From Sphaerolaimus hirsutus (lineage: Eukaryota > Nematoda > Chromadorea > Monhysterida > Sphaerolaimidae): a stretch of DNA of 64,000 nt. This document shows, piece after piece, positions 13,948-37,999 of this stretch. A program made the position numbers and the translations under genes. Within the stretch, counting starts at the first letter, position 1, and every line of letters starts with the position of its first letter. The stretch lies in assembly GCA_964036195.1 (NCBI GenBank), contig OZ038457.1:26360787-26424786 (forward strand), read 5' to 3'. Below the pieces are notes generated by a model. The model ran no database searches, was not told the DNA's origin, and saw only the letters and a list, made by a program, of their open reading frames with translations.

Positions 13948-16900
13948 CTGCGTGCAACCATCGGGGGTCCCATTTTAGGGGGTCACTGGGGTGGTCCCTT
14001 TCTGCTGCCTGTTCGTTTGCCCATTTGGATGCTCAGCGACTACGTTCGGGTTTCAGGTGGGGGCTATGGCCATAGAACACGAGTGCCCTAACCACTAGAC
14101 TATAGAGGTGGCTGAGCTCTTCACTATTAGGGGCTGACATGCTGCACAGGCAATGCCCTTAACAATACATTGCCGATCTGGACGATTTACTCGATCTGGA
14201 GCTCAAAAACTCATCCATTTCTGGCATGATTTGGACCGTGCAACACAAAATGACTGGCACAACCTTACCCTTATATTAAATATTCTTTGGGTCGTATTTA
14301 CCCTAAATCCTCGAATAAGACCCCAGGGGAGTTATTTTTTCGTCAGACGTTTTGGAGGGGGGAGTTATTCAAGGGGGGGAGTTATTCGAGGGGGGGAGTT
14401 ATTATTTCCTCAGGAAACTTGGACTTAATTCATTGTATGGATGCAGCATGTAAACTCGTGTAATTCAGGTATTTCACTGTCCAACAACAACAAAACAATG
14501 TGTATACACTGCATACACATTATTATCTGCTGTCGCTACTATTCTTCTATAGTTTTGTATTGTATCCTTTTCATCAGAAGTAGGAGTTATTTAAGAGGGG
14601 GGAGTTATTCAAGGGGGGAGTTATTTTTTCCTCACCCCGCTAGCAGGGGGGACTTATTCAAGGGGGGGAGTTATTCGAGGGGGGGGGTCTTATTCGAGGA
14701 TTTGCGGTAGCTATGTCTGCATTCTTCATGCCCATTTTACCCGTTTTTCCAGCATGACATTTTTAAGCCGTGCTATCAAATAGTTTGGAGAAAAATAATT
14801 CATATACTGGCGAAATTAGTTCAATATGTTGTTCCAATCAAAACTTATAGCAATTTTAACTTCCGCATTCCAGCTATGCAATTTTTTAAATAACCACATG
14901 AAGAACGAAACATGCAACTTCAAAACTCCACATCTCGCTCATTTCCCCGCCGATTTTCGTCAAAGGGCACATAAAACGACCTGGGGGCAGTCCCAAGCGT
15001 AAAGTGTAAAGTGTAAAGTAAAGTGTCAAATGTAAAGTCAAACGCAAACTATTGTGTCAATCAAAACAAAAAAGAAAAGATTTTATTACTGAACTTTGCA
15101 TGACAATTGACATTTGACTTTGCATTTGACTTTACATTTGACACTTTACTTTACACTTTACAGGGCTTGGGACTGCCGCCAGAATAACATCGACTTCTAT
15201 TGTCTTCTTGAAGTGGACGCCTCGATTAGAATGTAAGGCGCGCAATTTCACGAGCTTACTATCGGAACTGGCGCCCTACAATGCGCCCTACACAATAAAT
15301 CGCCGTGGAAATATGCGCAGACACTAACCAAAGCTGGCCACATTGCCAAAGACGAACACGAGCGATGAAACGGTCATCACGCCCAGTGAAACTCTGGCTT
15401 TCACGGCCGTGGTGGGGAAGAAAAAGCCCATCCACGACATGAACACGCACAGCGTCGACGGGGCGAATGCCTGAACGGTTTTTGATGGAAGTTTTTTTTT
15501 GTTTTTTGTTTTTCTTTTATTTAATGTTTTTAGACATTTTACAATGGCATCTACGACGCACAATTTGAAGAAAAAAACAATACTTTTTTACTTTCTCATC
15601 ATTCGGTGCAGATTAAAAACCGTATACCATTTTATTATGAAAAATAACCTGCAGCAAATAGAATCCCAGCATTCTTTTAAATCTCATTTTCACAACTAAA
15701 TTATCCCAGAGTCCGGCTGTATATTCCAATTCAACGGTGGCCATTTGATAGCCGATTAATGTGAATTCAGGAATTCTATAACTGCTCAAATTTCGGATAA
15801 ATCTGACTGGTTGCGGTTGGCGCCAGGCGGCACTCACAAACCCGGTAAATGGCCTGTAAAATGTCACGACTCATGAAAGTGTCTAAAGTCATGTGAAATG
15901 CCCCGGAAATGGGGATTGGTGGAAGCACGGTTAACCATCATGAAGTGCCTTCACGCTGACACTTCCCAGTGCTTCACCAAGAATGTTCTTCCACAAACAT
16001 TACAAAAAGTTGCATGCAAATGCGTGCTGTTAATGCTCAACATGCATGTAAATATTTGTGATGTGAGAGCATTTTACTTGACTTTTGACACTGCATGACA
16101 TTTGAAATTTTGCAGTGCATTTTACAGGGTCTGGGACTGCCACCAGGAAACTCTGATTTTTGATTGGTCATATGAATAACTTTCCAGTGATAAATCACAT
16201 TCTTGTACATCCATTGGGAAACGGTGTAGGTCTATTTGACAAGGACCTTTTACCTGAACGATTTTGGATGGAGATTTTATTTAAACTTGTTGTTTTATAC
16301 ACCGATGACTGCATGCTTTGCATTTTTCTGAAGGAAACAGTTCACAATGACGATATCGTTAATAAAATTAAAAACTGTTCTTAAAAAAACGTTACAGTTT
16401 TGTCGATTGTACACGCCTCCGCCTTTTTCTTTTTGAGCCTGTCCTGCTGGCGCGTTATCGACTAAGACATAAGTAATTTTGGACGCATATACTTGGCGGA
16501 CATGATACTCTGCCCTCGCATTGATTTATGTCTCGTGTTGGAAGCATGCCAATGATTATTTAATCATGCGATTTCCGTAAAAAGATGTAAAAATTCATTG
16601 TGTGAATATGTTAATGAATAACATAATAACTGCAATCAATTTTGTCATCTTTTTATGAAACTTGCACGCGTTTCATAAAACGCACTATCGTTGGCACACA
16701 TCCAGCGGGAACCTAGCGGGCAAGGTGTACAGTAACCGGAGTATACTTTGCAGTGCACATCCCGCCAAAATATACACCCAACAAAAAAAACACCAACGAA
16801 CCCTAACTCTCAACTGAGTCCACACTCTGCCATCCTCATACAAAACGCCCAGCACATTCGGAGTGGGCGAACTGTGGATTCGAGTTTCATAACTATTCAC

Positions 16901-19558
16901 CACGCAAACATTTGGTGTCCACAGCAATCTGTCGATCACTTTATGTGACAGTGAAATATTGGTCCTTTGGCATGGTGCCAAGTGAGTGTAACGTAGACGT
17001 CTGTCCATCCATTCGGTGGATATCCACGCGTCAACTACAAAGAATCCACTTTCCATTGATATGCTGGGGATGTCCTGAGGGATTTCGACGACATTAGAAT
17101 TCCTCCCCTTGAATAGGGATGGCCAGCGCTATTTTTCAAGCGCTTTTTTTTAAAAAAACGCCGCTTTTTTTAAAAAAAAAGCGCAAGGGTCCCAGCGCTT
17201 TTTTTTAAAAAAAAGCGCTGGCAAAAAATTTTGTACCTATGCACTAGGTATTTTGCAATTTTTTCGCGCGCGAGCGCGCAATACCGCATGCAAATTGCCA
17301 TTGGTGGTTGTTTTCATTGGTATTGTGGCATTTTTAGTGCCATTGCTTCTATTACTGCATGGTATCATGTAATAATAAGTTGTGATATGTCAGTCAAGTA
17401 TAGAATACCCGGCCAATGTGCTTCAACACACTTTTCTACAGTGTGAAACATCGGTGTCATGTATTAGCCTTCTCTTATAGCCATATTTAAGAAGTATCCC
17501 ATGCTTAACTTCACTAGAAGTCACGAAACATTCACAAACGGCGATATACATTACAAGTCAACATAAAATTGGATTTTTTTCAGCAGAAATCAGGATTTTT
17601 AATGCTATCTCATGATTACACAGCCATTCTATGACTATATATCATCACAAGTACTACCACTTGTCTGATATACCTGTATATATTGGCTCAGAACCATATT
17701 TGGGAGCTTTTTAGGTAATGTCTTGACATTTTTTGAAAAAAAGCGAAAAAGCGCGTTTTTTTTAAAAAAAGCGCTTTTTTTAAAAAAAGCGGGGTCGTTA
17801 AAAAAAAGCGCTTTTTTCCATCCCTACCCTTGAATAATCACCCTCAAGATAGTCTGATGAAAAGCTTTTTCCCCTTGGAATTATTCAAACAAATACAGTA
17901 TGTACATGATACATTTAGGAAATTTGTGCTTCTGAAAGTACTTGTAACTAGGGTGTCAAAAAAAAATTTTTACGGAAAACGGAAACGGAAAATAATTTCA
18001 GCGGCCAGAAAACGGAACTGAAAACAGAAAAAAATTTGCACTTGGCGGAAAACGGAAGCGGAAACAGGAAAAAAAGTTCAGTGGCCGGAAAACGGTAAAA
18101 GGGGCCGGAAAAACGGAAACAGAAAAATGGAATTTGCATGGAAATGGAAAAAATTGCTGAAATTTTGCCAACAAAACGATAAAATTCGCTGAAATTTTGC
18201 TGGAAACAGTTTTGCTGGAAATTGACAATCTGCATGACTGTTTACCAGTTTGGCTGGAACATAAAACAGAAAGTTGAGCCAGAAAAGGGTAAAATTAGGC
18301 GGAAAGCAGAAAATTGAGGTGGAAAACGGAAAAAAAGCGGAAAAAACTAGAATTTGAGCTGGAAAATGGAAAAAAAGCAGAAAAACTGAAAATTTAACTG
18401 GAAAACGGAAAATGAGCCGGAAAAACGGAAACGGAAAAAAAGGTGGCTGGAAAACGGAACAGAAAATGGAAAAAAAATTTCAGCGGCCGGAAAACGGAAA
18501 AAATTTGCCTGCGGAAAACGGAAATTTGACACCCTACTTGTAACCTAGTTTCCTTCAGAATCACCAAAAAAAATTGTGCAATTTTTGCATTTCCCTTTTA
18601 GACAGAGGCCCAAATTTTCACGAAAATAACATTGACAAACCTGTATAGTCAATTCAACTTGAACATCTACGGGCTGCAAGTGGTCATTCATCGGTACCAC
18701 AGCGGAATCATAATTGTCTTTGCTCAACAAAATGCTCAATAATTTCGCTGTGGATATATCCATGCAGTCTTTTTTGTTCTCATCCAATTCTGGTGGCAAT
18801 GAAACTTTGTTGACACTTTTGTTCTCGTTGGCACCGTGCCAAGGATACAAACTAGTTGACTGGGTGGATGTGTTTATTGATGGCTGTGTGAGAGGTGTGT
18901 TTTTGGGGTATCTTGTTGTAGGGTTGGGAATTTAAAAATATCAAGATCTGGGTATCGGGTATTCAACATTTTCACACCAGGGGCAGTCACGTACTGTGTT
19001 GAGTGTTAAGTCAAGTGTCAAATGTCATGTAAATTGTCAATTACAATCAAAAAGATTTTATTACTGCACCTTGATTCGTGATGTAAACAGCGCCATGGCG
19101 CTTCTAAATACAGGTATAAAAAATACTTTTAATATCTTGCATAACATTTGACACTTTGTTATAGTTTACAGGGTGCGAGACTATCACCACGTACAAAAGC
19201 CCTGTGGTTTCGCAGGGTAGATAGCTGAAGTTTGTTATATTGGAAGGGGTTCCCAGGGGAATTCTCTCCAAGAAAACACGATTGCACCCACCTGCGAACT
19301 TCTATGACTTTTCGGCGGTCTAGTAATTTCCTTCCAATCAATCCAATCAAATCTGGGCGGGTTCCATTCTTCTTTTTCAGGCGGCCGCACATAATTTTCC
19401 TTCAATGAATTCTCGCTTGATTTTTCGGGAAAATTTTTCGCCGGCATAAAATTGTCGTCAGGAGAAATTTGGTATGGGATAAAATTTCCGGCATCCGCGG
19501 GAGATGTGTGATTCAGCATTTCGTGTAGCAGAACGAAAAATACGGAAGATGGAGCCAT
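13801..19558 (-). CDS. Cys-loop ligand-gated ion channel subunit, anion-channel type (exons 1-7; TM4 not located)
   Basis: Seven minus-strand exons join in phase: 19558-19292, 18859-18641, 17074-16808, 16253-16126, 15853-15649, 15470-15329, 13947-13801. In order they encode a possible signal region, a ligand-binding domain with a canonical Cys-loop (CQIDLHRFPMDVQEC, 13 residues between cysteines), then TM1, TM2 and TM3. Family members are pentameric plasma-membrane receptors for GABA, glycine, glutamate, histamine or protons. The TM2 entry KARVSLGVMT aligns with the PAR motif of anion channels, so chloride selectivity is likely. The second cysteine pair of glycine/GluCl receptors is absent, which favours a GABA-receptor or pH-gated-like class. 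The ligand cannot be inferred. Exon 7 ends in phase 1, and the M3-M4 loop and TM4 should lie below 13800. Intron 4 coincides with a MITE. Confidence 0.85.
13970..14140 (-). repeat. possible tRNA-derived SINE fragment
   Basis: On the minus strand TAGTCTAGTGGTTAGGGCAC resembles the A-box region of tRNA-Glu/Asp-type genes. A clear B box is missing and no cloverleaf closes. It is more likely a tRNA-derived repeat in channel intron 6 than a functional tRNA. Confidence 0.35.
14299..14709. mobile_element. CCTAAATCCTCG-type MITE, GGGGAGTTATTCGAGG arms
   Basis: It starts TACCCTAAATCCTCGAATAA and ends TTCGAGGATTTGCGGTA, with TA at both ends. It is nearly identical to 58080-58499. Relatives lie at 19907-20388, 31509-31905 and 44211-44546. 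Glycine/serine-rich ORFs here are array translations. Confidence 0.75.
14991..15182. mobile_element. MITE, CTGGNGGCAGTCCC ends, GTCAAATG/GTAAAGTG arms
   Basis: Ends CTGGGGGCAGTCCCAAGC and GCTTGGGACTGCCGCCAG are perfect inverted repeats apart from one base. The arms are GTAAAGTGTCAAATG-like arrays. It lies in channel intron 6. Confidence 0.8.
15329..15470 (-). CDS. channel exon 6 (TM1-TM2)
   Basis: The exon encodes FAPSTLCVFMSWMGFFF (TM1) and KARVSLGVMTVSSLVFVFGN (TM2). The acceptor TTCAG is in phase 0 and the donor G/GTTAGT in phase 1. The residue before the conserved Ala-Arg is Lys rather than the usual Pro. Confidence 0.9.
15649..15853 (-). CDS. channel exon 5 (pre-TM1 strands)
   Basis: The CATTTTACAG acceptor lies in the other terminal repeat of the same MITE. 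An alternative acceptor at 15833 keeps the same frame. The exon encodes IPEFTLIGYQMATVELEYTA and MRFKRMLGFYLLQ, matching the LP.F.L.G and FxRxxGYYLIQ blocks before TM1. The donor CAG/GTTATT leaves phase 0. Confidence 0.85.
15824..16146. mobile_element. MITE coinciding with channel intron 4
   Basis: Plus-strand left end CAGGCGGCACTCACAAACCC (decayed) and right end GGGTCTGGGACTGCCACCAG are the terminal repeats of the CTGGNGGCAGTCCC family, with CTGTAAAATG / CATTTTACAG just inside. Coding sequence of exons 4 and 5 abuts both ends. A GAAGTG-motif insert sits inside (about 15910-15995). Confidence 0.75.
16126..16253 (-). CDS. channel exon 4 (Cys-loop)
   Basis: The TTCAG acceptor gives VKGPCQIDLHRFPMDVQECD, then LSLESYSYDQSKIR, the diagnostic Cys-loop. 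Three donors give consistent products: after 16126 (GTAAAA, preferred), after 16144 (GTGGCA) and after 16152 (GTTTCC). The first two lie inside a MITE terminal repeat. With the preferred donor, about 8 residues of the exon end come from the MITE. Confidence 0.8.
16485..16745. mobile_element. TATACTTGGCGG-type element in channel intron 3
   Basis: It is closely similar to 5785-6030 in the same orientation, ending CCGGAGTATAC. No coding potential. Confidence 0.55.
16808..17074 (-). CDS. channel exon 3 (ligand-binding beta strands)
   Basis: The exon encodes DIPSISMESGFFVVDAWIST, EWMDRRLRY and LLWTPNVCVVNSYETRIHSS, then LYEDGRVWTQLR. These match the W.D.RL, .LW.PD..F.N and .DG.V..S.R blocks of Cys-loop receptors. 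It is phase 0 at both ends (89 codons). The acceptor at 17076-17075 was chosen over upstream AGs because it fits phase and alignment. Confidence 0.85.
17114..17826. mobile_element. hAT-type MITE, AAAGCGCTTTTTTT arms
   Basis: Ends TAGGGATGG and CCATCCCTA are flanked by CCCTTGAA on both sides (17106-17113 and 17827-17834). Arms are GCGCTTTTTTTTAAAAAAA units. The core contains GCACTAGGTATTTTGCAA and a GCGCGCGAGCGCGCAA palindrome, both shared with 47734-48435 and 55552-55968. Confidence 0.85.
17949..18536. mobile_element. hAT-type MITE, GGAAAACGGAAACGG arms
   Basis: Ends TAGGGTGTCAAA and TTTGACACCCTA are flanked by CTTGTAAC on both sides. The arms are long irregular arrays of GGAAAACGG, and the Phe/Pro-rich ORFs on the minus strand are translations of them. 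It lies in channel intron 2. Confidence 0.85.
18641..18859 (-). CDS. channel exon 2 (start of ligand-binding domain)
   Basis: The exon runs from a CCCAG acceptor to a CAG/GTTTGT donor, phase 0 at both ends (73 codons). The C-terminal part, ISTAKLLSILLS through LQPVDVQVELTIQ, aligns with the L..LL..Y......P..VDV.V family pattern. Confidence 0.8.
18975..19192. mobile_element. GTCAAATG-arm MITE in channel intron 1
   Basis: Ends ACCAGGGGCAGTCACG and GGTGCGAGACTATCACCACG are decayed versions of the CTGGNGGCAGTCCC repeat. Inside are GTGTCAAATGTCATG motifs and a short CGCCATGGCGC palindrome. Confidence 0.6.
19292..19558 (-). CDS. channel exon 1 (start codon, N-terminal region)
   Basis: ATG at 19558 begins MAPSSVFFVLLHEMLNHTSP, a short hydrophobic stretch that may be a signal peptide, followed by a hydrophilic Pro/Glu/Asn-rich segment. 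The CAG/GTGGGT donor leaves phase 0, matching exon 2. The start is the first ATG of the open frame; no promoter was recognised. Confidence 0.5.
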
Positions 19559-21181: not shown

Positions 21182-22431
21182 ACTTCAAAGACGTGCCATT
21201 TAAATGCAGGTGCCCTTCTATTGCAGGAGCCCTTCTATTGGAGGTATGCCGTATCGCAAAAAGTGGAGTCGTCGAGCGCATATGCAGAGCGCACAATTGG
21301 TTTGTGATCTCCGCTGTGATTTCAGTGTCGTGAATTGGCTTCACGCAGGCGCAGTCGCAAGACTTCACTACGCCTCACGAAGAGCCCGTGCCAATCCGAC
21401 ATTCAAGAGGCGGTTTCACATGCATCAAAATTTAGTAGAAAAAACTTGCAAGCTCAAAAGTACTCCAAAAAAGTTTGAAATTTTAAGGCATTTGAAAGAA
21501 AACCCCTTCAAAAGTTAAACACTTTTTCCTTAAGCATTGCCCTCGTTATGTTTGCTTTCACATTCATGAAACGCCGTGAGTTGTTGTGAGATAATCACTT
21601 CACGGAACTTCACCATACCCCGCACGCAACTATTTTTGTATGTGATAGTGAAATACAATGTATTTATCATGTGGCAAAATTTACCTAAAAACTTTTTTCA
21701 GACGGATATGGTAGATTTCAATGTACTATAGTTAATGGCTTTTTCTGTCGCAAATGAAAGGATCAAATATTACTGAACGAAGTAAAAATGAACCTAGACT
21801 AGAGCAAACATGCATTTTGTCACAATGCGCTGAGAGCTTCCAATGAGCTTAAGCAGTAATGCGGTAAAATTTCACATGAAAACGTCAGGAATTGAAAACG
21901 TCAGGTGAATATGAAAGTGAAATTTATATTTATTACGTTTGCTAGATTACATTACATTTGAAATACATTGGCTAATTATTGAGCTCAAATGACTAAAACA
22001 GTTAAAATGCCCCCCCCCCCCCCCTGAATTCAACGCTTCAAAGATGAGAAGAAGCCCCCTTGAATGGCGATTTAGACAATTCATAGGCGCCTGGCCAACA
22101 GTTTCCGAATGGCACCTATTTCTGGCACATTGCCATCACTACTTTGACACCTAACACTTCCCTTGTCGCTATGTGAAAATGAAATGAAAATAACAGAAAC
22201 TAAACACAGTCATGCCCGTCGAACAAACGGAACAGTGATTTCACATTCATTTCCTGTTTAATTAAATACTTGACTTACTTTCCGCATCTGAGGGGCCAAA
22301 TTCACAATCAGCATGTGGGCCAGTGACAAGAAAAGTAGTTTTAAGCTGAATTTGGTGACTAGTAAATGGTTAGCTATCCATACATGTACTCGTCATACGC
22401 ATTTACTTGTCACTTGGACTACCAATTGATA

Positions 22432-22826
22432 TACCGTATTACCTCGAATTATCCCCCCTTGAATTTACCCCCCCCCCCCTCAAAATGGGCTGGGGAAATC
22501 ATAAACCCCCCCTCGAAATACCCCCCCCCCCTCTGGAATGATGTACATCATGTATGCAATGTAAATACATGATGTATTTATTACTACTTATTTGCATCGC
22601 AGCTACCCTTATACGCTCATTTGTGTACACATGTACATCTATAGCCCCAATATGACCTATTTTCTCACATTTATTACCGTTTTTGTGTAAGAAAAGGCGT
22701 ATTCTCTAGTATGAATTTCACGAAAATTTCTGGGGAAATAATAAAACCCCCCCTCGAATTAACCCCCCTCAAATTTTGCTGGCGAAATAATAAACCCCCA
22801 TGGGGGTATTTCGAGGTAATACGGTA
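22432..22826. mobile_element. CCGTATTACC-type MITE, copy-1 specific
   Basis: It starts TACCGTATTACCTCG and ends CGAGGTAATACGGTA. The corresponding copy-2 position near 33522 reads straight through with one TA. Confidence 0.85.
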
Positions 22827-22914
22827 TCACTTATATCTGGCGGACATCACACACACTTAGTATGGAACGTACCATAACCCATCTGAAAATTGAACCTAAA
22901 ATTATAGTTTTTCA

Positions 22915-23125
22915 TCACAATACTCATTTTTACGTTTTCACCTCGAAAATACTCATTTTTACGTTTTCTCTGGAAAAAAGTAGTTTACTTACCTTTTACG
23001 CAGTGTAAAAGTAAAAATAAAATACTTTACGTTTTCTGTACGCATGTGTGACGTGTGAGTAAAAAAAAATACTTTACGTTTACGTTTACTTTCAAATGAG
23101 TTCGGTACTTTCAACAACTCTGCTC
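22915..23125. repeat. TTTACGTTT-motif array (copy 1; counterpart 33635-33835)
   Basis: Repeated TTTTACGTTTTC and ACTTTACGTTTACG motifs end in ACTTTCAACAACTCTG. This is the same family as the shell at 11855-13785. It is present in both copies, so it predates their split. Confidence 0.55.
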
Positions 23126-23573
23126 GAAACACGCAACAATAGAAAGTAGCGCCACAAAGGAGAATTTTTGACGTGTAGCTTAAGATAACTCGACTTCGCA
23201 CACCACGAGTTAGAAAACGATATAAAAATACGAGTTGTATGGGAAATGTGGTTGGAAAGTGAAATCAAATTCATGTGAGCTAACGGTTGAGTGGATTCAG
23301 CTCATCAAGGGGAGTAGCTGCAGCGGGCGCCATTTCCGCGAGTTTACAAAAAATGGATAGTGACCAGTAAAGTTGTGTGTTAAGTTAACCTTTCTAGTGG
23401 TAAGTAAAAATGTTGTGAATTTAATACACTTGCCACTTTTAAGTTCACTTGTTACTCGCATCGCTACCTTTACCTATCAATAACGATGCCAAAAACCAGG
23501 AAAGAAATATGATAAACGTTTGAATTTGTCAAGTGTTTTTTTCATGTTCCAAAAAATGTGTGACATTGGCCCT

Positions 23574-23766
23574 GCGCACACTAGTTTTCACACAAAATTT
23601 CGAAAACTCATAAATGAGCTTTGAACGTGTTTGAGTTTCCATAATGCGTCATTTTTGATCTCCGTCAACTGTGGTTGACGGCCATCTCATCGTAGAAAAC
23701 TCAAATGCGTTCTAAGCTGATTTGTGAGTTTTCGAAATGTCATGCAAAAACTAGTGTGCGTAGGAT
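23574..23766. mobile_element. CACACTAGTTTTC element (copy 1; counterpart 34278-34473)
   Basis: GCGCACACTAGTTTTCAC at one end and AAAACTAGTGTGCGTAGG at the other enclose complementary arms that include AACTCATAAATGAGC and CAAATGCGTTCTAAGCTGAT. It is present at the same position in both copies. Confidence 0.75.
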
Positions 23767-24411
23767 ACCAGCTTTGAATACCACATACAAGCTTTGAATA
23801 GCGTTTCTGCACTATATTCATGGATTTTCCACCAAAAAATACCGGAAAAATTCGAATACACATTCCGAATTTTCAATTCTATCTAGAGAATTTTTTTGAA
23901 GTATTTTTTTTCTAGAACCGGACTCAAAATTCAAAATGTCCAAAAATGAGAACGTTCAAATTTTTTTTTGAATTTCTGTTTGTCATCGTTAGCTGTCACT
24001 TAACTTTTTTTCCAATAGTCAATTTCTGACATCTGAAAGGTTACTCACCACTTGACACAGATATTTATTTGATGTGCGCGATTTCTACCTAAATTCCAAT
24101 TTACCTAAGTCCGAACGATCAAAATATTTGTGATCGTTCGGACTTAGGTAAACGGAGGTTCACATAGTGGTAAGTTTATAACTGCTGCCACCTCTAAAGT
24201 AAATATCAGTTCCGAATAGAGATAACATGGGAACGGGAAGTGTACTCGCGGAATTGGCACCTGGGTATAGCTTTATTCTATTGTTCATTTCATGTACACG
24301 CATGGATATTTATGAACTACGTACCGTAAATCCTCGAATAGTCCCCCTGCGGTATTATATTTTTGTGAAATTTGTTAATTGGGGAGGGGGATAATTATGG
24401 GGCAGGCCTGA

Positions 24412-24594
24412 TACGCACATTTGCCCGTTTTTTTCACTTGACACATTTTCAAGTGATTTTCAGATATGAGTGAAGTGAAAAAAGTTCACTAACGTCATTG
24501 CGCAGCGTTTTTCACTTCACTCATATCTGAAAATCACTTAGAAAAGTGTCAAGTGAAAAAAACGGGCAAATGTGCGTAACGGGCAGGTGTGCGT
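24412..24594. repeat. long hairpin, arms of about 80 bp (copy 1; counterpart 35115-35281)
   Basis: ACGCACATTTGCCCG...TCACTTGACAC is mirrored by GTGTCAAGTGA...CGGGCAAATGTGCG around a short centre. The centre itself differs in orientation between the copies (TTCACTAACGTCATTGCGCA versus its reverse complement). That fits inversion of the loop between the arms. Confidence 0.7.
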
Positions 24595-25435
24595 ATCAGT
24601 GCACCCCCGTAATTATGTCCTCACACGGCTAATAGGGGGGAGACTACGCAAGGGGGACTAATCAAGGATATACGGCAACGTATTTATGCACTGTCTGTTT
24701 TTATGACTACATGGCTTTGTGACATGTCAGACAGACAGTTATTAAAAACCTTTACGTTCACCTTTAGAAGTTAGGTTCACCCTGAGAGTGAATGCTTTAG
24801 TCGTATGTTTATTTATACGGATAAATTTTTTTTGCACACCTATCTTCATTCAGTGAATATTTGTAGTACTTGACATTCAATGTTGAAGTCATATACACCA
24901 GCAAAGCGTTCTTGAAATGAGCAGAAATAATGGTTAGAAAATTGATAACTTTGAAAAAGCGGAATTATGTTATTTAAAGCTTACCTATATGCAACTCACT
25001 AGAAGTAAAGACCAGCGATAGAAAACAAAGTTTCTGGACCTTTTTTGTCAAACTGTAGTAAATATTTAGGAAAATAATAAATGAAAACGCACATGAAGTA
25101 TAGGTAAGCAAATGTAGCTACGTAAATACATATTGTATTTCCAAGCCATTAGAGCATTAAATCGCAGCCAAAATTGTTTTATGAGAATAGAAAATTCGAA
25201 AACGATTTCACTTGAAAATAACATTTGAAAAAGTAGCTACAGAAAAATTGAGAAAAAAATTACAAAAGTTCCAAAAAATATTATCGTTGTATTCCACGAA
25301 AAACAGCAACTACACGAAAATAGAAAAACAAGCACGCATTTTCCACCAATGTCGCTTCCACAGAGGTAATCACCGCCAGTCCTAAACAGTATCGCTTTGA
25401 AATTCAAAAGGCTAGCCTTACTCAAGAGTTTAAAC

Positions 25436-25859
25436 GGGGATGGTCCGGCCGTAAAGTAAACCCGGCCGTAAAGTAGAGGGTGCTACTTTAGGCCGGGCAT
25501 CATTACGGTAGAGTTGTTCAAAGTACTGAACTTGTTTCAAAGTAAACGTAAACGTCAAGTATTTTATTTTTAGTCACACCCGAGTACAGAAAATGTAAAG
25601 TAAAATTTTTTTACTTTTATGCTGCGTAAAAGGTGAGTAAACGTAAATATCTGTAAATACTCGTTTTCTGTACTCGCGTACTTTCAAAAAGTACGCGAGT
25701 AACTGAGTACCGGTATTTTTTCGGGAGGAGACGTAAACGTATTTATGCAGCACTCGAGTAAACGTATTTATCGAGTAAACGTAAATACGTTTGTACAACT
25801 ATGCATTACGGCCGGATTTACTTTACGGACGGGTTTACTTTACGGCCGAGATCTCGCCA
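25436..25859. mobile_element. hAT-type MITE, GGCCGTAAAGTAAACCC arms, copy-1 specific
   Basis: It is flanked by GTTTAAAC on both sides. Copy 2 has a single TTAAAC at this position (near 36240). It has the same ends and arms as 10522-11200, with TTTACGTTT arrays inside. Confidence 0.85.
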
Positions 25860-25957
25860 GTTTAAACAGTGATAGTATAGCACCAGAGAAATGGCCGCAT
25901 GGACACCACCAGTCGGTGCCAATCCCAGACACTGCAAAATGAACAATGTCATGCAAG

Positions 25958-26688
25958 TAGGGTGGCAGAATTTACCGTACCGTACCGTACCGTACCGCAT
26001 TTTTGGGAAATTTACCATACCGTACCGTTTACCGCACTTTTATAAATTTACCGTACCGTACCGCGTACCACATTTTCCAAAATTTACCGTACCGTACCGT
26101 GTACCGCACTCATTTACCGCAGAAAATGCGGTAAATTTTACCCAATTTTACCTTAAATATGCCAATTTATTGATGACAAATAATGTAGTGTTTTGAAATT
26201 TTGGCGCGCAAGCGCACAAATTTCACAACACTGTTTTCCTAATTTGAAGCCGTTTCATTTCAACATGCTCTTAAAGTGTAAATTTCACTTACTTTGAGCA
26301 ATTTTTCACCCACTTTTAGCAATTTTTCTTCATTTTCTTCCTTCTACTCCTTGAATAAACCAATATATTGAGCCCCTACATAGTGGGTAATGTAATTGTA
26401 TGTCATCATACTGTTATTGTGTTCTTAAGTCCATTTATCAAATTGTGTCATTGAATTTGGTGTCAATTTATAAAGTAAAAGTTGTCTGTAGTCCGGCATT
26501 GATACATTTCTGACAATCGGAAATTTACTGTACGTACCGTACCATACCACATACCGCACTTTTCAGATTTACCGTACCGTACCGTTTACCGCAAAATTGA
26601 AGATTTACCGTACCGTACCATTTACCGCAAAATGGAAAATTTACCGTACCGTACGGTTTACCGCAAGGCCGTACCGTCTGCCACCCTA
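25958..26688. mobile_element. hAT-type MITE, ACCGTACCGT arms, copy-1 allele
   Basis: Ends TAGGGTGGCAG and CTGCCACCCTA are flanked by CATGCAAG and (C)GATGCAAG. Arms are runs of ACCGT. The core includes TTTTGGCGCGCAAGCGCACA, shared with other families. Copy 2 has a different element at the same target. Confidence 0.9.
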
Positions 26689-27279
26689 CGATGCAAGGTG
26701 TCAAAAGTCATAGAAAATGCCCTGAAAAACGTCAAAAGTCGTGTAAAATGCCCTGTAAAATATCAAATGTCATACAGTGTCACAAGTTGCGTAGGTAAAA
26801 TTGTAATGTAGATGTCAATTATTATTTTTATTAATTGGTCATTTGACATTTTTCACATGATTTTCAACACTTTGTATGGCATTGGACATTTTTCACAACA
26901 TTCCACAGGACGTTTGACTTAGACTCAACATTTGAAATTTTATAGGGTCTGAAAAAAGTTCTTTAACCTAGTCCAGAATATAGTCCATGACTTTGGCGCC
27001 AGCGCCATGGCTCCATTCCGAACGCCATGCGGACCTATAGAAGAGTTTATGGCGCGTACAGAGATAAAGGAAGATAATAGACCAATTGGCAAGGCGGCAG
27101 CAAGGGCACCGCCGGAAGTGTTGCGCGCCCATGCGTGTACTGGCTCCGTCCCAAAAGTAGTGGGACACTGAGCAAATCAGCAAGTGCACTGGTGACAATG
27201 AAAGCGAAGCAAACTGAGGGCATTGCACACACTAGTTCACTAACACTAGTATACTCAAAATTGAGTTTACATAGATCAG

Positions 27280-28172
27280 GTGCCGGTTCCGCAAGTGGAC
27301 AAGTTAAGAGTTAAAAGTTAAGAGTTGAGTAAAATGACAAATGGCGAGTTAAGAGTAAAGTTAAAGTTTAAGAGAAAAGTTAAAGTTTAAGAGAAAAGTT
27401 AAAATTGAAGGGTTGAGTTAAAGGTTGAGTTAAATGTTAAGAGTTGAGTTAAAGGTTAAAAGTTGAGTTAAGAGTTAAGAGTTGAGTTAAGAGTTGAGTT
27501 AAGAGTTGAGTTAAGAGTTGAGTTAAGAGTTGAGTTAAGAGTTCAGTTAACAGTTGAGTGAGGAGTTGAGTTAAGAGTTGAGTTAAGAGTTGAGTTAAGA
27601 GTTGAGTTAAGAGTTGAGTTAAGAGTTGAGTTAAGAGTTGAGTTAAGAGTTGAGAGTTAAGAGACAAGTGGAAAATGATGGTAAAAAATATAAAAATGTG
27701 AAATTGGTATCGATACGGCTGTTAGCTGGCATGGTGCCAATGTTGTATGAACGTCATTTGAAAATAATGTATCCAAAAAAATTATCGCTAAAAAACAAAA
27801 AAATCGCAGACCATTGTTTCAAATCCAACACTCTCAATATCCAAATTCATTTTTTAAATTTTTTTATTATTTTTTATTACATTTTCCCCCATTTGTCTTT
27901 TAAATCAACTTTTAACTCACCTTTTAACCTTTCACTCAACTCTTAACTCAACTTTTAACTTTTAACTCAACTCTTAACATTTAACTCAACCTTTAACTCA
28001 ACTCTCAACATTTAACTCAACTCTTAACATTTAACTCAACTCTTAAATTTTAACTTTTCTCTTAAACTTTAACTTTTCTCTTAAACTTTAACTTTACTCT
28101 TAACTCGCCATTTGTCATTTTACTCAAGTCTTAACTTTTAACTCTCAACTTGTCCACTTGCGGAACTGGCCC
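27280..28172. mobile_element. inverted-repeat element, TTAACTCAACTC arms, copy-1 specific
   Basis: Ends GTGCCGGTTCCGCAAGTGG and CCACTTGCGGAACTGGCCC are flanked by CAG. Copy 2 has the uninterrupted site GATCAGCTCTG (near 37395). The left arm has about 20 tandem GAGTTGAGTTAA units and the right arm has the reverse complement. The LLTQLLTQ ORF at 27449-27667 is an array translation. Confidence 0.9.
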
Positions 28173-28730
28173 CAGCTCTGAACACATTTGAATTGAATTT
28201 GAATATTTGACAACTGGACATTAAATAGTAAACTCAAAATGAAACTCAAAAGTGTTCCAAGCTTATGAGTATCAAATTTTGAGTTAACCAGCTCTAGTAA
28301 ACTAGAATGTGCAGTGATTGTAAGTGAATTGCTAGATGAAAATACTTAACACTTATTTACTTGGCACCTGAATTACAACTTGACATTTTTATTGTCATTT
28401 GTTCATTGCTTGGAATGAAAATGTCAGACTGAATAAATTCAACTGTGAAATGAATTGCATGTCTGTCCAAATTTGAATTTAAAACAGAATTGTACCTAGG
28501 TGAACATTTGTATAGTGAAAGGTCTACTGAGCTTACAACTGAAAATCATATCAACAGGTCTGTAATTCAACAAAGAAAAACCTATAAATTTAGAGTAGTT
28601 GCAGTGAATGAAGAGATTAGAAAAGTGGACAGTTGAAAGTGAGAAACCACTTCATCTCAGTCAGTGCCAACATTTACCACTTTTATGTTACTTATCAGTA
28701 AATTTGAATAAAAGTATCTACTACTTGCAG

Positions 28731-28796
28731 GACCAAAACGTCCACTGTACCATTTATTTTAGAACAAACCAAGCATTTACGTGAAATGCGTACACG
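28731..28796 (+). CDS. exon B of an unidentified gene (copy 1)
   Basis: A CTACTTGCAG acceptor and an ACACG/GTGACC donor bracket 66 bases reading TKTSTVPFILEQTKHLREMR and TR. It enters after two codon bases and ends leaving two (CG), which exon C completes to Arg. It is identical in copy 2. No family is recognised. Confidence 0.45.
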
Positions 28797-29193
28797 GTGA
28801 CCCGAATGTGTACATAAATCCCCCTGCGTATGTAAAAACAGCAAAGATGCCAAAGATGCGTTGCGATGCATAAAATGAACCAGTGTGGGGGGCACTAAAA
28901 TTGCAAATGCGCATTAGATAACAGTATTCAAAGAGTCCCCATTTTAAGGGTTGGGGATATGGTAATGGATGGTATTAATTCAATTTTTGGGATTGATTAT
29001 CTAAACTGATGTTTAAAAATCAGAGGGTCATTTTCCTTAGAAAAAAGTCAAACTATTTAGCTGCGTTTCCAGATTATTTTTGAACACGATGACAAACACT
29101 ACGCGCTGAAAACAGTAGGAATTGATGTTTGTGGGCACACAAATCATTACATTTGAATTTTACAAAAAGCATATCTAAATTCATTCTTCAATC

Positions 29194-29556
29194 TACCGTA
29201 TTTCCTCGAAATACCCCCCCCCGGGGGTGATTGTTTCATAGTGGTCCCGAGAGGGGGGGGGGTATTTCTAGGGGGGGGGGGTTATTATTTCGCCAGAAAT
29301 TTTTTCAAATCCTAGTACAAAATCGTCGTTTGTGATGTACACTGGGGTAGAAAAATGCATCAATAATTGACATGTATAGACTCCTGTAGACTAATAGTAG
29401 TACGTAAATTGTATAAACACCGTTCTAACGTGATTCCGACATTGTTTTAACGTGTGTTCTGCACTACGCAGAACACAAACTGCAGTATTTGTCATGTACG
29501 TTCTCTTTACACTCAATCTGGGGGGGGGCGGGGGGGTATTACGAGGAAATACGGTA
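29194..29556. mobile_element. CCGTATTTCC-type MITE, copy-1 specific
   Basis: It starts TACCGTATTTCCTCGAAATA and ends GAGGAAATACGGTA. Copy 2 reads CAATCTAGGTAAAACG without interruption (near 38400), so the duplication is exactly TA. Confidence 0.9.
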
Positions 29557-30064
29557 AGTAAAACGTAAATACATTTAAAACCATTCATGTATGGCGAAAT
29601 GAAAAAATCACATGTGCAGGAAGTGAAACCAAACGGTTCACCAACCCAAAGAACAAACAAACAACGATCCTCAAATACAGGGACAGGGACAACACAGGAT
29701 CGTTTTTTAAGCCATTTTTACTTGGGCTAAAATCGATTTTAAGGTATCATAAAATCTTTCAGAAATATGTAATGTCTAACTTGACAAATTATTGATTTTG
29801 ATAAGTTGGAGATTTTTTATCACTTCGTTGACATGGCTGGGTTCAGTTCAAGGAGGGGTGGATATCCGAGAAGTTATATCAGGTAATTTTTACCCCTTTT
29901 TCACGTACAGCAACGCAGAACTAAAATTCACAATGTTTTGAAATTTGACAACAATGACAGAAAAAGTACGGTCATACGGTAACTAGAAAGTAAACGAAAA
30001 CCTATGAATTCAATTAAGTAAATGGAATGCAGTCGGTTAGATTTTCAATTTACATTCAAATCAG

Positions 30065-30183
30065 CGCCAAAACGTTTCTATTAAACGCAGAAACTGCGCA
30101 AACTTTCCAGGAGATCACTTTACTGGCGATAATTTCCTGCTCGCAAGCTGAGTGTATTCTGAAATTGGCAATTTTCGTTGCTT
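30065..30183 (+). CDS. exon C of an unidentified gene (copy 1)
   Basis: A TTCAAATCAG acceptor is followed by AKTFLLNAETAQTFQEITLL, then AIISCSQAECILKLAIFVA. The proposed GCTT/GTACCC donor sits at a MITE edge and is uncertain. All four substitutions seen against copy 2 fall at third codon positions of this frame. The antisense frame shares those third positions, so strand rests on the exon B junction. Confidence 0.45.
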
Positions 30184-30184
30184 G

Positions 30185-30620
30185 TACCCCCGCGGGGGTG
30201 CAGGTGGATAGTAACCCCCCCCCCCCCCCCAAAGGACGTAACCCCCCTTCACGGGATGAGACCTAAAAAGTCCCGGAAAATGCAACTTTTCCTACATATT
30301 TTTCGATGTTTCTAAAAAATTTTGCGCGCAAGCGCGCAATTTCTTCCCCATGCATTGTATTTTCAGCGGATCGGTCCCTGTAAACAAATATCCTTCAAAA
30401 TGAACACATTTTTGCAACTTTCGCTGTATATCTATGAATATTTACATAACATATAAAGCGGTTCCTGGCGCTGGCGCCAACGCCAATAGCGCCATGGCGT
30501 GGCGCCTTTGTAGGGCGCTAGCGCCAAAACGCCTTACCGTCCCTATATAGGGAAACATTTTACGGGGGGGGGGGCTGACCCCCCCCCCCCGTTCGCCGGC
30601 CCAAAGAAGAACAATTTTCT
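30185..30620. mobile_element. hAT-type element fragment with GGCGCC module (copy 1; counterpart 39036-39490)
   Basis: It contains TTTTGCGCGCAAGCGCGCAA, a GGCGCCAACGCCAATAGCGC module and a C/G-run end. Copy 2 also keeps the terminal CCTGGATACGTCCCTG. It is related to the complete elements at 46454-46853 and 62278-62696. It is present in both copies, so it is older than their split. Confidence 0.65.
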
Positions 30621-30841
30621 GGGGTGGCTAAAATAATTGGAAAACAGCAAAAAAGTAAATATATAAGCAGGTATATAGCCAAAAAAGCAGGAAATATGCA
30701 ATAAGGTACATGATAATGAAGGTGAAAAAATAAAAATTAGTTGTTTTGAACGAAAATTGGTGTTCAAAAATCGCTTCAGGTATTTAGGTAGACAGCTGAG
30801 CGATTTCGGTTCAGGTGTGAGTAGGTTCAATTTTTGCCTCG

Positions 30842-31380
30842 TAAGGCCGGAATTAGAGCTCAGCGTCGATTCGACGTGAAATGATGACGTGAAATGTTTT
30901 CGTGAAATTAATTACACGAGTGTGGATCATGCTACGGGTCTACAATTTTCTAAGGATAATATATGAATCAATACCTTAATCGTGTCCAATACTGAGTGTT
31001 ATCAGCCACAACTAGAGCGAATTGAAAAATTCAATTTTTATCATTTCACGTCATCATCATTTCACGTCACAGTGTCAGGGAACAACTTGACATTTCACGT
31101 CAGACTAGTGCAAGCAGCAGTCTGACGTGAAATGTCAAGTTGTTCCCTGACACTGTGACGTGAAATGATGATGACGTGAAATGATAAAAATTGAATTTTT
31201 AAATTCGCTCTAGTTGTGGCTGATAACACTCAGTATTGGACACGATTAAGGTATTGATTCATATATTATCCTTAGAAAATTGTAGACCCGTAGCATGATC
31301 CACACTCGTGTAATTAATTTCACGAAAACATTTCACGTCATCATTTCACGTCGAATCGACGCTGAGCTCTAATTCCCGCT
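30842..31380. mobile_element. foldback element of about 540 bp, copy-1 specific
   Basis: Two arms of about 260 bp are almost perfectly complementary around GACTAGTGCAAGCAGCAGTC. Ends are AAGGCCGGAATTAGAGCTCA and TGAGCTCTAATTCCCGCT. Copy 2 lacks it (CCTCGGAATAGATAC near 39738). Arms contain repeated ATTTCACGTCA motifs. Confidence 0.85.
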
Positions 31381-31508
31381 GAATAGATACATAGCTGGAG
31401 CGTTTGTTTTTATTGGGGGGGGCCCTCCTACATGTTCCCTCTTTCGATGGAAATAAATAGATTGCATTGCAGTTGCAAGGATTTAGGATTAGGTAGAATT
31501 AAGTATGA

Positions 31509-31905
31509 TACCGCAAATCCTCGAATAAGACCCCCCCCTCGAATAACTCCCCCCCCTTGAATAACTCCCCCCTGTTGGCGAGCTGAGGAAAAAATAACTT
31601 CCCCCCTCGAATAACTCCCCCCTCTTGAATAACTTCCCCCACTGGATGAAAACAATAGTATACAAAAACACAAAATAATATTAGCCTACAGCAGCGACAG
31701 CAGATACATGATGTGTATGCAGTGTATACACATCTTTTTATTGTTCTTGTACAGTTAAATACCTGAATTACATGAGTTTACAGACAGCACCCATGTAACA
31801 AGTTTTCTGAGGAAAAAATAACCCCCCCCCTCGAATAACTCCCCCCCTCCAAAACGTCTGACGAAAAAATAACTCCCCTGGGGTCTTATTCGAGGATTTG
31901 CGGTA
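31509..31905. mobile_element. CCGCAAATCCTCG-type MITE, copy-1 specific
   Basis: It starts TACCGCAAATCCTCGAATAA and ends TTCGAGGATTTGCGGTA. The copy-2 site reads GTATGATACATTTAAATAC, an exact TA empty site (near 39870). Confidence 0.9.
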
Positions 31906-31974
31906 CATTTAAATACAGAATGTACACCGCTACTTTTATATAGCTCTAAATTTATATGGAACGATTCTGCGCAA

Positions 31975-32165
31975 AAACACAGCCAAGTGCACGTACAAGT
32001 GACAACTGGCAAGAAAAGTGAATGTGGTAAGTCAAGTGACAAGTAAATTGATCAAGGAAAATACTTGCCACTTATGATTTTACCTGTCGCTTGACTTACC
32101 ATTATGACATAAGTTACCACTTTTCTTGTCACATGCCTACTTGGCAAATGGCCCCAGGTGGCAGT
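31975..32165. mobile_element. AAGTGACAAGTAAA-arm element (copy 1; counterpart 39960-40142)
   Basis: The arms contain AAGTGACAA / TTGTCACTT motifs in opposite orientation around TTACTTGCCACTTATGA. It is present in both copies at the far end of the duplicated region. Confidence 0.5.
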
Positions 32166-32173
32166 CCCACACT

Positions 32174-32373
32174 NNNNNNNNNNNNNNNNNNNNNNNNNNN
32201 NNNNNNNNNNNNNNNNNNNNNNNNNNNNNNNNNNNNNNNNNNNNNNNNNNNNNNNNNNNNNNNNNNNNNNNNNNNNNNNNNNNNNNNNNNNNNNNNNNNN
32301 NNNNNNNNNNNNNNNNNNNNNNNNNNNNNNNNNNNNNNNNNNNNNNNNNNNNNNNNNNNNNNNNNNNNNNNNN
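32174..32373. other. assembly gap, 200 N
   Basis: A run of exactly 200 N, a typical scaffolding placeholder. The two copies of the duplicated region end and begin exactly at its edges. ORFs with long X runs here are artefacts. Confidence 0.99.
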
Positions 32374-35283
32374 AAGTGGAGTCGTCGAGCGCACAATTGG
32401 TTTGTGATCTCCGCTGTTATTTCAGTGTCGTGAATTGGCTTCACGCAGGCGCAGTCGCAAGACTTCACTACGCCTCACGAAGAGCCCGTGCCATCCGACA
32501 TTCAAGAGGCGGTTTCACATGCATCAAAATTTAGTAGAAAAACTTGCAAGTTCAAAAAGTACTCCAAAAAAGTTTGAAATTTTAAGGCATTTGAAAGAAA
32601 ACCCCTTCAAAAGTTAAGCACTTTTTCCTTAAGCATTGCCCTCGTTATGTTTGCTTTCACATTCATGAAACGCCGTGAGTTGGTGTGAGATTACAACTTC
32701 ACGGAACTTCACCATACCCCGCACGCAACTATTTTTGTCTGTGATAGTGAAATACAATGTATTTATCATGTGGCAAAATTTACCTAAAAACTTTTTTCAG
32801 ACAGATATGGTAGATTTCAATGTACTATAGTTAATGGCTTTTTCTGTCGCAAATGAAAGGATCAAATATTACTGAACGAAGTAAAAATGAACCTAGACTA
32901 GAGCAAACATGCATTTTGTCACAATGCGCTGAGAGCTTCCAATGAGCTTAAACAGTAATGCGGTAAAATTTCACATGAAAGAAATTGGAAACGTCAGGTG
33001 AATATGAAAGTGAAATTTACATTTATTACATTTGCTAGATTACATTACATTCGAAATACATTGGCTAATTATTGAGCTCAAATGACTAAAACAGTTAAAA
33101 TGCCCCCCCCCCCTGAATTCAACGCTTCAAAGATGAGAAGAAGCCCCCTTGAATGGCGATCTAGACAATTCATAGGCGCCTGGCCAACAGTTTCCGAATG
33201 GCACCTATTTCTGGCACATTTCCATCACTACTTTGACACCTAACACTTCCCTTGTCGCTATGTGAAAATGAAATGAAAAAAAAACAGAAACTAAACACAG
33301 TCATGCCCGTCGAACAAACGGAACAGTGATTTCACATTCATTTCCTGTTTAATTAAATACTTGACTTACTTTCAGCATCTGAGGGGCCAAATTCACAATC
33401 AGCATGTGGGCCAGTGACAAGGAAAGTGGTTTTAAGCTGAATTTGGTGAATAGTAAATGGTTAGCTATCCATACATTTACTCGTCATACGCATTTACTTG
33501 TCACTTGGACTACCAATTGATTTATCACTTATATCTGGCGGACATCACACACACTTAGTATGGAACGTACCATAACCCATCTGAAAATTGAACCTAAAAT
33601 TATAGTTTTTCATCACAATATTTTTCATCACAATACTCATTTTTACCTTTTCACCTAGAAAAATACTCATTTTTACGTTTTTTCTGGAAAAAAGTAGTTT
33701 ACTTACCTTTTACGCAGTGTAAAAGTAAAAACCAAATACTTTACGTTTTCTGTACGCATGTGTGAGTAAAAAAATACTTTACGTTTACGTTTACTTTCAA
33801 ATGAGTCCGGTACTTTGAACAACTCTGCTAGAAACACGCAACAATGGAAAGTAGCGCCACAAAGGAGAATTTTTGACGTGTAGCTTAAGATAACTCGACT
33901 TCGCACACCCCGAGTTAAAAAACGATATAAAAATACGAGTTGTATGGGAAATGTGGTTCGAAAGTGAAATCAAATTCATGTGAGATAACGGTTGAGTTGA
34001 TTCAGCTCATCAAGGAGAGTAACTGCAGCGGGCGCCAATTCCGCGAGTTTACAAAAAATGGATAATGACCAGTAAAGTTGTGTGTTAAGTTAACCTTTCT
34101 AGTGGTAAGTAAAAATATGTTCTGAATTTAATACACTTGCCACTTTTAAGTTCACTTGTCACTCGCATCGCTACCTTTACCTATCAATACGATGCCAAAA
34201 ACCAGGAAAGAAATGTGATAAACGTTTGAATTTGTCAAGTGTTTTTTTCATGTTCCAAAAAATGTGTGACATTGGCCCTGCGCACACTAGTTTTCACACG
34301 AAATTTCGAAAACTCATAAATGAGCTTTGAAATTGTTTGAGTTTTCCACAATGCGTCATTTTTGATCTCTGTCAACTGTAGTTGACGGCCATCTCATCGT
34401 AGAAAACTCAAATGCGTTCTAAGCTGATTTGTGAGTTTTCGAAATGTCGTGCGAAAACTAGTGTGCGTAGGATACCAGCTTTGAATACCACATACATGCT
34501 TTGAATAGCGTTTCTGCACTATATTCATGGATTTTCCACCGAAAAATACCGGAAAAATTCGAATACACGTTCCGAATTTTCAATTTTATCTAGAGAATTT
34601 TTTTGAAGGATTTTTTTTCTAGAACCAAACTCAAAATTCAAAATGTCCAAAAATGAGAACGTTCAATTTTTTTTTTGAATTTCTGTTGGTCATCGTTAGC
34701 TGTCACTTAACTTTTTTTTCCAATTGTCAATTTCTGACATCTGAAAGGTTACTCACCACTTGACACAGATATTTATTTGATGTGGTCGATTTCTACCTAA
34801 ATCCCCGTTTACCTAAGTCCGAACGTTCAAAATATTTGTGATCGTTAGGACTTAGGTAAACGGAGGTTCACAAAGTGGTAAGTTTATAACTGCTGCCACC
34901 TCTAAAGTATCAGTTCCGAATAGAGATAACATGGGAACGGGAAGTGTACTCGCGGAATTGGCACCTGGGTATAGCTTCATTCTATTGTTCATTTCAAGTA
35001 CACGCATGGATATTTATGAACATGTACCGTAAATCCTTGAATAGTCCCCCTGCGGAATTATATTTTTGTGAAATTTGTTAATTGGGGAGGGGGATAATTA
35101 TGGGGCAGGCCTGATACGCACATTTGCCCGTTTTTTTCACTTGACACTTTTTAAGTGATTTTCAGATATGAGTGAAGTGAACAACGCTGCGCAATGACAT
35201 TAGTGAACTTTTTTCACTTCACTCATCTGAAAATCACTTAAAAAAGTGTCAAGTGAAAAAAACGGGCAAATGTGCGTAACGGG

Positions 35284-35522
35284 CTGGGGGCAGTCCCAAG
35301 CCCTGTAAAGTGTCAAGTAAAGTGTCAAATGTAAAGTCAAATGCAAAGTAAAGTGTCAATCAAAGCAAAAAAGAAAATATTTGATTACTGAACTTTGCAT
35401 GACAATTGACCGTTTACTTTGCATTTGAATTAACATTTGACACTTTACTTTGCATCTGACTTTACATTTGACACTTTACTTTACACTTTACAGGGCTTGG
35501 GACTGCCACCAGATGTCCGTAT
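35284..35522. mobile_element. MITE, CTGGGGGCAGTCCCAAGC ends, copy-2 specific
   Basis: The inverted ends enclose GTAAAGTGTCAAATG arrays. Copy 1 lacks it at 24585 (CGGGCAGGTGTGCGTATCAG). It is the same family as the channel-intron MITE. Confidence 0.85.
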
Positions 35523-36332
35523 CAGTGCACCCCCGTAATTATGTCCTCACACGGCTAATAGGGGGGAGACTACGCAAGGGGGACTAATCGAGGATATACG
35601 GCAACGTATTTATGCACTGTCTGTTTTTATGACTACATGGCTTTGTGACATGTCAGACAGACAGTTATACAAAAACCTTTACGTTCACTTTTAGAAGTTA
35701 GGTTCACCCTGAGAGTGAATGCTATAGTCGTATGTTTATTTATACGGATAAATTTTTTTGAGAAAAGCGGAATTATGTAATTTAAGGCTTACCTATACGC
35801 AACTCACTAGAAGTAAAGACCAGCGATAGAAAACAAAGTTTCTGGACCTTTTTTTGTCAAACTGTAGAAAATATTTCGGAAAATAATAAATGAAAATGCA
35901 CATGAAGTATAGGTAAGCAAATGTAGCTACGTAAATACCTATTGTATTTCCAAGCCATTAGAGCATAAAATCGCTGCCAAAATTGTTTTATGAGAATAGA
36001 AAATTCGAAAACGATTTCACTTGAAAATAACATTTGAAAAAGTAGCTACAGAAAAATTGAGAAAAAAATCACAAAAGTTCCAAAATATAATATCGTTGTA
36101 TTCCACGAGAAACAGCAACTACACGAAAATAGAAAGGAGAAAAACAAGCACGCATTTTCCACCAATGTCGCTTCCACATAGGTAATCACCGCCAGTCCTA
36201 AACAGTATCGCTTTGAAATTCAAAAGGCTAGCCTTACTCTTAAACATAGTGATAGTATAGCACCAAAGAAATGGTGGCATGCACCAGACGGTGCCAATCC
36301 CAGACCCTGCAAAATGAACTATGTCATGCAAG

Positions 36333-36828
36333 TAGTGTTCAAACGGGATCCCGATCCCGGATCCCGTGAAATTCCGGGATTTACCAGTCCCGATCCCGAT
36401 CCCGAAACCCCAATCCTGATCCCAATTCCGAAATCCAAAAATACTTATCCCCATCCCGATCCCGATCCCGAGAAACTCCCAAGTCCGGGATCCCGATCCC
36501 GGAAAAATTAGTGGAAATAATAAAAAGTGAAAAAATGACGTTTTTGCATGCAAAAAAGTGGATGCAAACCCCCAGTGTCCATTTTATGTCAATTTTCTGG
36601 CATCCAACAGTTTTTGAGACCTTTATGAACAACTTTGAATGCCAGAAAAATGGGCAAAATCTCTATCCCTAGAACCCAATCCCGATCCCAGAAAAATGCC
36701 AATCCCAATCCCGTGACCCCAATCCCGGCCAAACCCGATCCCGATCCCGAAATCTCAAAAAACCAATCCCGATCCCGAAACCCCAATCCCGATCCCAATC
36801 CCGAAAAGTCAATCTCGTTTGAACCCTA
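36333..36828. mobile_element. hAT-type MITE, GATCCC arms, copy-2 allele
   Basis: Ends TAGTGTTCAAACGGG and CCCGTTTGAACCCTA are flanked by CATGCAAG on both sides. The core contains TGACGTTTTTGCATGCAAAA, shared with 41428-42048 and 62837-63217. It occupies the same target as 25958-26688. Confidence 0.9.
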
Positions 36829-37933: not shown

Positions 37934-37999
37934 GACCAAAACGTCCACTGTACCATTTATTTTAGAACAAACCAAGCATTTACGTGAAATGCGTACACG
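37934..37999 (+). CDS. exon B of an unidentified gene (copy 2)
   Basis: Identical in sequence and splice signals to 28731-28796. The intron to exon C is shorter here because a MITE is missing. Confidence 0.45.

Follow-up and report, generated by a model that had tools for sequence, protein, structure and literature searches.

Two hAT-type elements at one 8-bp target on either side of an assembly gap in Sphaerolaimus hirsutus

How can two unrelated transposable elements come to lie at the same base of one sequence? The question is raised by a locus in the window, that is, the whole stretch of 64,000 nucleotides of Sphaerolaimus hirsutus DNA analyzed here, in which two copies of a region each carry a hAT-type non-autonomous element in the same surroundings. 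The element of the first copy is denoted E1 and that of the second E2. Their structure and target are described below, followed by the relationship between the two copies and by the routes through which a single target may become occupied twice.

Two elements and their common target

E1 (25958-26688, no strand assigned) was read directly as an element of 731 bp with the ends TAGGGTGGCAGA...TCTGCCACCCTA, its 12-bp inverted ends being TAGGGTGGCAGA at both termini. E2 (36333-36828, likewise without strand) has a length of 496 bp and the ends TAGTGTTCAAAC...GTTTGAACCCTA, corresponding to the end pair TAGTGTTCAAAC / TAGGGTTCAAAC. In both elements the inverted ends are short and start in the TAG/CAG manner of the hAT superfamily. 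To the left of E1 lies CATGCAAG (25950-25957, plus strand) and to its right CGATGCAAG (26689-26697, plus strand), which is CATGCAAG with an extra G after the first C; the right-hand target GATGCAAG given in the preliminary description begins one base inside this duplication and is corrected here. E2 is enclosed by two perfect 8-bp copies of CATGCAAG (36325-36332 and 36829-36836, both plus strand). Direct reading therefore confirms the earlier observation that two hAT-type elements adjoin one 8-bp target. The surroundings are alike on both sides, as had been reported, with alignment identities of 86.5% over 104 columns on the left and 93.1% over 597 columns on the right. Arms and core are indeed unrelated, the best internal match between E1 and E2 having a non-significant E value of 0.53; what the two elements have in common is three bases at the 5' end and six at the 3' end.

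The arms of E1 are rich in ACCGT repeat arrays (11 units on the left, 9 on the right) and those of E2 of GATCCC-rich arrays (10 and 5, respectively). It can be observed that within each element the arrays of the left and the right arm share one orientation, although the terminal 12 bases are inverted. Both elements are short, repeated and predicted to lack a transposase gene, as is characteristic of MITEs. In the frame listing of the window, no stop-to-stop frame of at least 130 aa overlaps E1, and a 154-aa minus-strand frame at 36119-36583 covers part of E2 together with its left flank. A scan for hAT-type ends, in which 9 of 12 end bases had to match and 8-bp duplications were allowed at most one mismatch, returned 11 pairs in the window, compared with a total of 9 over 20 Markov-simulated sequences of equal length. 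E2 is among these 11 pairs and E1 is missing because of the extra base in its right duplication. With the end criteria relaxed, scans of seven further places yielded nothing.

Both elements have relatives. Those of E2 in the window lie at 41428-42048, 61635-61785 and 62837-63217, and the terminal 12 bases of E2 equal those of all three at both ends, apart from one left-end base. The target duplication typical of hAT elements is perfect over 8 bp for E2 and for the relatives at 41428 and 62837, and agrees at 7 of 8 bases for that at 61635. For E1, the assembly was searched (348 Mb in 762 contigs), yielding at least 44 match rows, with 40 of 1927 first-look candidates scored. Twenty-eight E1-family places were read, comprising the window copy and 27 others, and at 24 of the latter the element is enclosed by perfect 8-bp duplications, each of them different. 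The remaining three are L027, with a duplication matching at 7 of 8 bases, L015, with none, and L008, without a readable left end. These 24 perfect duplications indicate that insertion of the whole element is the normal behavior of the E1 family, the copies of which look like ordinary cut-and-paste insertions. At one place, L021 (G000:C239:5485-7056), two E1-family copies stand head to tail, six bases apart, and at another, L020, an E1-family copy lies inside an arm of an E2-family element with its own 8-bp duplication.

Parts of both flanks of E1 and E2 recur in the window in three clear paralogues and a weak one near 15840, and the same dispersed repeat is carried by the E1-family places L003 and L023; the CATGCAAG target thus sits within an older dispersed repeat. 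The three clear paralogues are unoccupied. Those at 42125-42206 and 60490-60580, both on the plus strand, read CATGCAAA at the target and that at 16066-16160, on the minus strand, reads CATGCAGT; each contains CATGC once at the site and no element, and the 8-mers are not exactly CATGCAAG. Since these paralogues are unoccupied, E1 and E2 are taken to be insertions and not remnants, the empty sites being paralogous rather than allele-level ones.

Other features of the window may be summarized briefly. A Pfam search of 6 of the 22 listed frames revealed one domain, the ligand-binding domain of a neurotransmitter-gated ion channel (16685-17128, minus strand, E = 3.8e-13), which overlaps the edge of a hAT-type element starting at 17114. 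A lysine-rich open frame of 309 aa at 493-1419 gave no Pfam match and, in a protein search, no homologue at E = 0.001. The frame at 58568-59014 on the minus strand gave one weak hit, named ABC subfamily F protein 3 and covering 30% of the query at 62% identity, and the rest of it resembles a repeat array.

The assembly gap between the two copies

Between the two copies lies an assembly gap at 32174-32373, exactly 200 N in length and the sole run of N in the window. The contig tail to the left of it (21261-32173, plus strand; haplotype A, formerly "copy 1", with E1) and the contig head to the right (32374-40150, plus strand; haplotype B, formerly "copy 2", with E2) form a dovetail. The first base past the gap, 32374, matches 21261, with 20 identical bases followed by a 13-base difference (bases 21261-21286 were matched by eye against the right edge of the gap), while the last base ahead of the gap, 32173, aligns with 40150. 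The overlap, which measures 10.9 kb to the left of the gap and 7.8 kb to the right, thus reaches both gap edges, and contains 231 mismatches in 6917 gap-free columns (3.3%).

Besides E1 and E2, the haplotypes differ by one-sided insertions of at least 117 bp, seven in A only (22434-22824, 24833-24949, 25424-25861, 27280-28172, 29196-29554, approximately 30845-31378, and 31512-31903) and one in B only (35288-35509), as expected of polymorphic elements. The insertion at 25424-25861 lies directly to the left of E1, and its inverted relative, split into two pieces, is found at 10584-11201. Those at 22434-22824, 29196-29554 and 31512-31903 have inverted ends, two of them beginning with CCGTATT, are flanked by TA, and are mariner-like in look. 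The insertion at 30845-31378 is a near-perfect palindrome of 534 bp, 98% identical to its own reverse complement. In addition, the haplotypes differ between common flanks at 30551-30602 and 39407-39497, in a stretch with many runs of G or C.

Because the 200-N gap lies between the two copies and the overlap of the contig ends extends to both of its edges, they are very likely alleles, namely unmerged haplotypes, and not the product of a duplication. Of the "two copies" of the preliminary description, the alignable flanks therefore stand, and the gap, which was absent from that account, turns the copies into probable alleles. The gap with its overlapping contig ends is probably a false tandem duplication in the assembly. 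According to PMC9516828, false haplotype duplications whose copies are separated by a gap are a well-documented phenomenon; false duplications accounted for 4-16% of the sequence of three older assemblies and for 0.3-2.3% of that of their newer versions. The sign of a false heterotype duplication, a gap between the copies, is found here as 200 N with overlap to both edges. The same dovetail pattern would result from a true tandem duplication if the gap concealed its junction and E1 and E2 were inserted afterwards. Such an origin is nevertheless unlikely given the documented cases of gapped false duplication (PMC9516828), and the round figure of 200 N looks more like a default setting than a gap length that was measured. 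It should be noted that this is a separate axis, since a tandem duplication would be compatible with each of the readings of the elements considered below.

Independent insertion, replacement and sequential occupation

Two independent hAT-type insertions into one favored target, one per haplotype, provide the best reading of the locus, and a fairly probable one. One locus of a very heterozygous genome would appear twice in the assembly, the contig ends of the two haplotypes presumably having been left unmerged and scaffolded side by side across the 200-N gap. Transposases acting in trans would have moved the non-autonomous E1 and E2, which would then have inserted into CATGCAAG independently, one in each haplotype. 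Each insertion yielded an 8-bp duplication of its own, that of E1 with one extra base. Independent insertion is better supported than its rivals because of the fit of the target, the complete ends of each element's own kind, the unoccupied paralogues, and the absence of a chimera or a shared tract. Of the two readings offered in the preliminary description, it is therefore this one that gains, at the expense of the in-place replacement which had been stressed there.

The coincidence at one exact site becomes likelier because a palindromic target preference fits CATGCAAG. A symmetrized matrix built from 25 E1-family duplications, with L027 entered by its right-hand duplication, contains 1.80 bits, whereas none of 1000 random sets exceeded 0.82, and so a target preference of the E1 family exists. 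On leaving one site out at a time, 11 of the 25 sites fell in the top 5% and 19 in the top 20%. By this matrix, CATGCAAG lies in the top 0.84% of the 8-mers of the window, a rank reached in 42 of 1000 random 25-site sets. A second matrix was derived from nine other hAT-type sites in the window, a set that leaves out E2 and the pair 16113-18191, the latter dropped as a likely chance pair that stretches across two other elements; for 61635, with its duplications differing by one base, one reading was used and the other checked. This matrix places CATGCAAG in the top 0.11% (0.06%-0.36% on dropping one site), as high as which it was ranked by 24 of 2000 random nine-site sets. The unsymmetrized form places it only at 1.8-8.6%, and leaving one out gave a mixed outcome, with four sites within the top 7.3% and five between 19% and 63%. 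With all 34 sites pooled, CATGCAAG is in the top 0.31%. The support thus comes from E1-family and mixed hAT-type sites, the E2 family being represented by its three window relatives. CATGCAAG is a favored target, with a preference of modest strength and random-set controls that are moderately strong.

If E1 and E2 are taken as the one hAT-type insertion that each haplotype carries in about 7.3 kb, the chance of coincidence at the locus amounts to 1 in 7260 for uniform insertion and to approximately 1 in 1150 with a crude preference factor of 6.3. For genomes of 200-500 Mb, a range that includes the assembly analyzed here, 3.8-9.5 same-site pairs are expected under uniform insertion and 24-60 with preference, an expectation that is rough and partly circular because the density was taken from the same overlap. 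A search of many windows for oddities should meet such pairs. A pair of unrelated elements at the same base is unusual to see and is explicable by known mechanisms.

Set against the majority sequence of seven other copies of its subfamily, E1 has private differences at 12 of 399 sites of the unique core (3.0%). Each of those seven differs from the majority of its fellows at 4-9 core sites, and among the eight copies E1 shows the greatest divergence. An insertion at the time of the haplotype split would predict 6.7 sites when half the haplotype divergence is used (1.7%; P = 0.04), and 8.0 sites by the adjacent flanks (2.0%; P = 0.11). L008, for lack of a left end, and L015 were left out of the dating; in a tree of 27 copies, L015 groups near the E1 subfamily, and L026, which belongs to the other subfamilies, has a longer terminal branch than E1. 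The divergence of E1 is an upper bound on the age of its insertion because part of it can predate the insertion. An attempt to prove by subfamily dating that E1 was inserted after the split failed, the divergence of E1 exceeding half the haplotype divergence. E1 could therefore predate the split, an age which the divergence allows and which would not be expected had the insertions been independent events after the split. The result leans towards loss or replacement.

In-place replacement would mean that a resident element was excised or broken and that the gap was filled by copying a member of another family, with ends and duplication persisting while arms and core changed. It draws some support from the six bases common to the 3' ends and from E1 being perhaps as old as the haplotype split. 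However, the three and six common bases are of the kind found in other hAT-type elements of the window and, being so few, provide hardly any homology by which strand invasion could be guided. When a P element is excised, a part of its inverted repeat stays behind in the flanks; hAT elements are cut at their very boundary, so that no stub, and hence no end homology, is left there. Furthermore, E2 is complete to the ends of its own family on both sides, no significant tract of E1 is left in E2 or of E2 in E1, and end homology as in a P-like replacement was not found, with no internal match between the two elements below E = 0.5. On the same threshold, a chimera of E1 and E2 was rejected. Replacement has a precedent in P elements: of 192 StanEx insertions, 9 landed in a single site, where they replaced a KP element, two of the nine with small adjacent deletions (PMC6643891), and two precise P replacements were described among 34 roX1 insertions (PMC3887531). 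Gap filling has also been reported for animal hAT elements, which gain internal fillers by template switching, but the fillers described in PMC8277862 are internal, with breakpoints that lie near one another (at a median of 4.6% of the element size). No hAT-by-hAT replacement appeared among the titles and abstract openings of a literature search, which is no proof of its absence in print. With these points combined, replacement in place is improbable, and it is likewise improbable that a hAT element was swapped on one haplotype for an unrelated one that shares just 3-6 terminal bases and the target duplication with it, as a homology-poor replacement outside the P family.

The pre-split age allowed by the private divergence of E1 would also suit sequential occupation, in which a first element was inserted before the split and cleanly lost on one haplotype and a second remains in the same target. 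The loss would have occurred by precise excision, or by deletion between the 8-bp duplications once one of them had received the second element; after a first insertion, both copies of the duplication would keep the favored 8-mer. Against this, neither site contains the 8-mer three times or bears a clear footprint, one extra base being all that is seen, and an additional loss event is needed. Sequential occupation, by either route, is accordingly rather improbable. Excision followed by re-insertion with a footprint was considered and rejected, the extra base in the right duplication of E1 being the sole trace.

If the insertions are independent, as is preferred here, the locus represents a naturally replicated insertion. 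Coincidence of different families at an exact site would then appear realistic in element-rich, heterozygous genomes by way of a shared preference, and "same site" alone should then not be taken to prove that an insertion is of common descent. An unmerged overlap of haplotypes can, moreover, pose as a tandem duplication.

Comparison with known systems

The locus resembles the false heterotype duplications of PMC9516828 in that divergent near-copies lie on one scaffold with a gap between them. P-element replacement, as described in PMC6643891 and PMC3887531, resembles it in that two elements would be found at one base with one target. The difference is that those cases involved P elements on both sides, as donor and as resident, and were witnessed in crosses, whereas E1 and E2 share almost nothing and are known here from sequence.

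With regard to the target, hobo and hATx-6 display a weak preference across the 8-bp duplication (PMC3276498, PMC8721813), the overall bias of hATx-6 being called low by its authors (PMC8721813). Compared with the hATx-6 pattern, CATGCAAG agrees in having A at positions 6 and 7, a pyrimidine at 3 and 5 and a purine at 4 and 6, and departs from the moderate biases at bases 1, 3 and 8 (G, C and C; PMC8721813). At positions 1 and 8 the E1-family matrix differs from hATx-6, favoring C at the former and G at the latter. The published pattern is found at 2.1% of the positions in the window and, among the nine other hAT-type sites, at one.

Finally, E1 and E2 differ from hAT MITEs in that their arms are direct rather than inverted, and in nothing of substance otherwise. 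They agree with them in the 8-bp duplications, the short inverted ends starting with TAG, the sub-terminal arrays and a length below 1 kb, and E1 does so also in its many copies in the genome.
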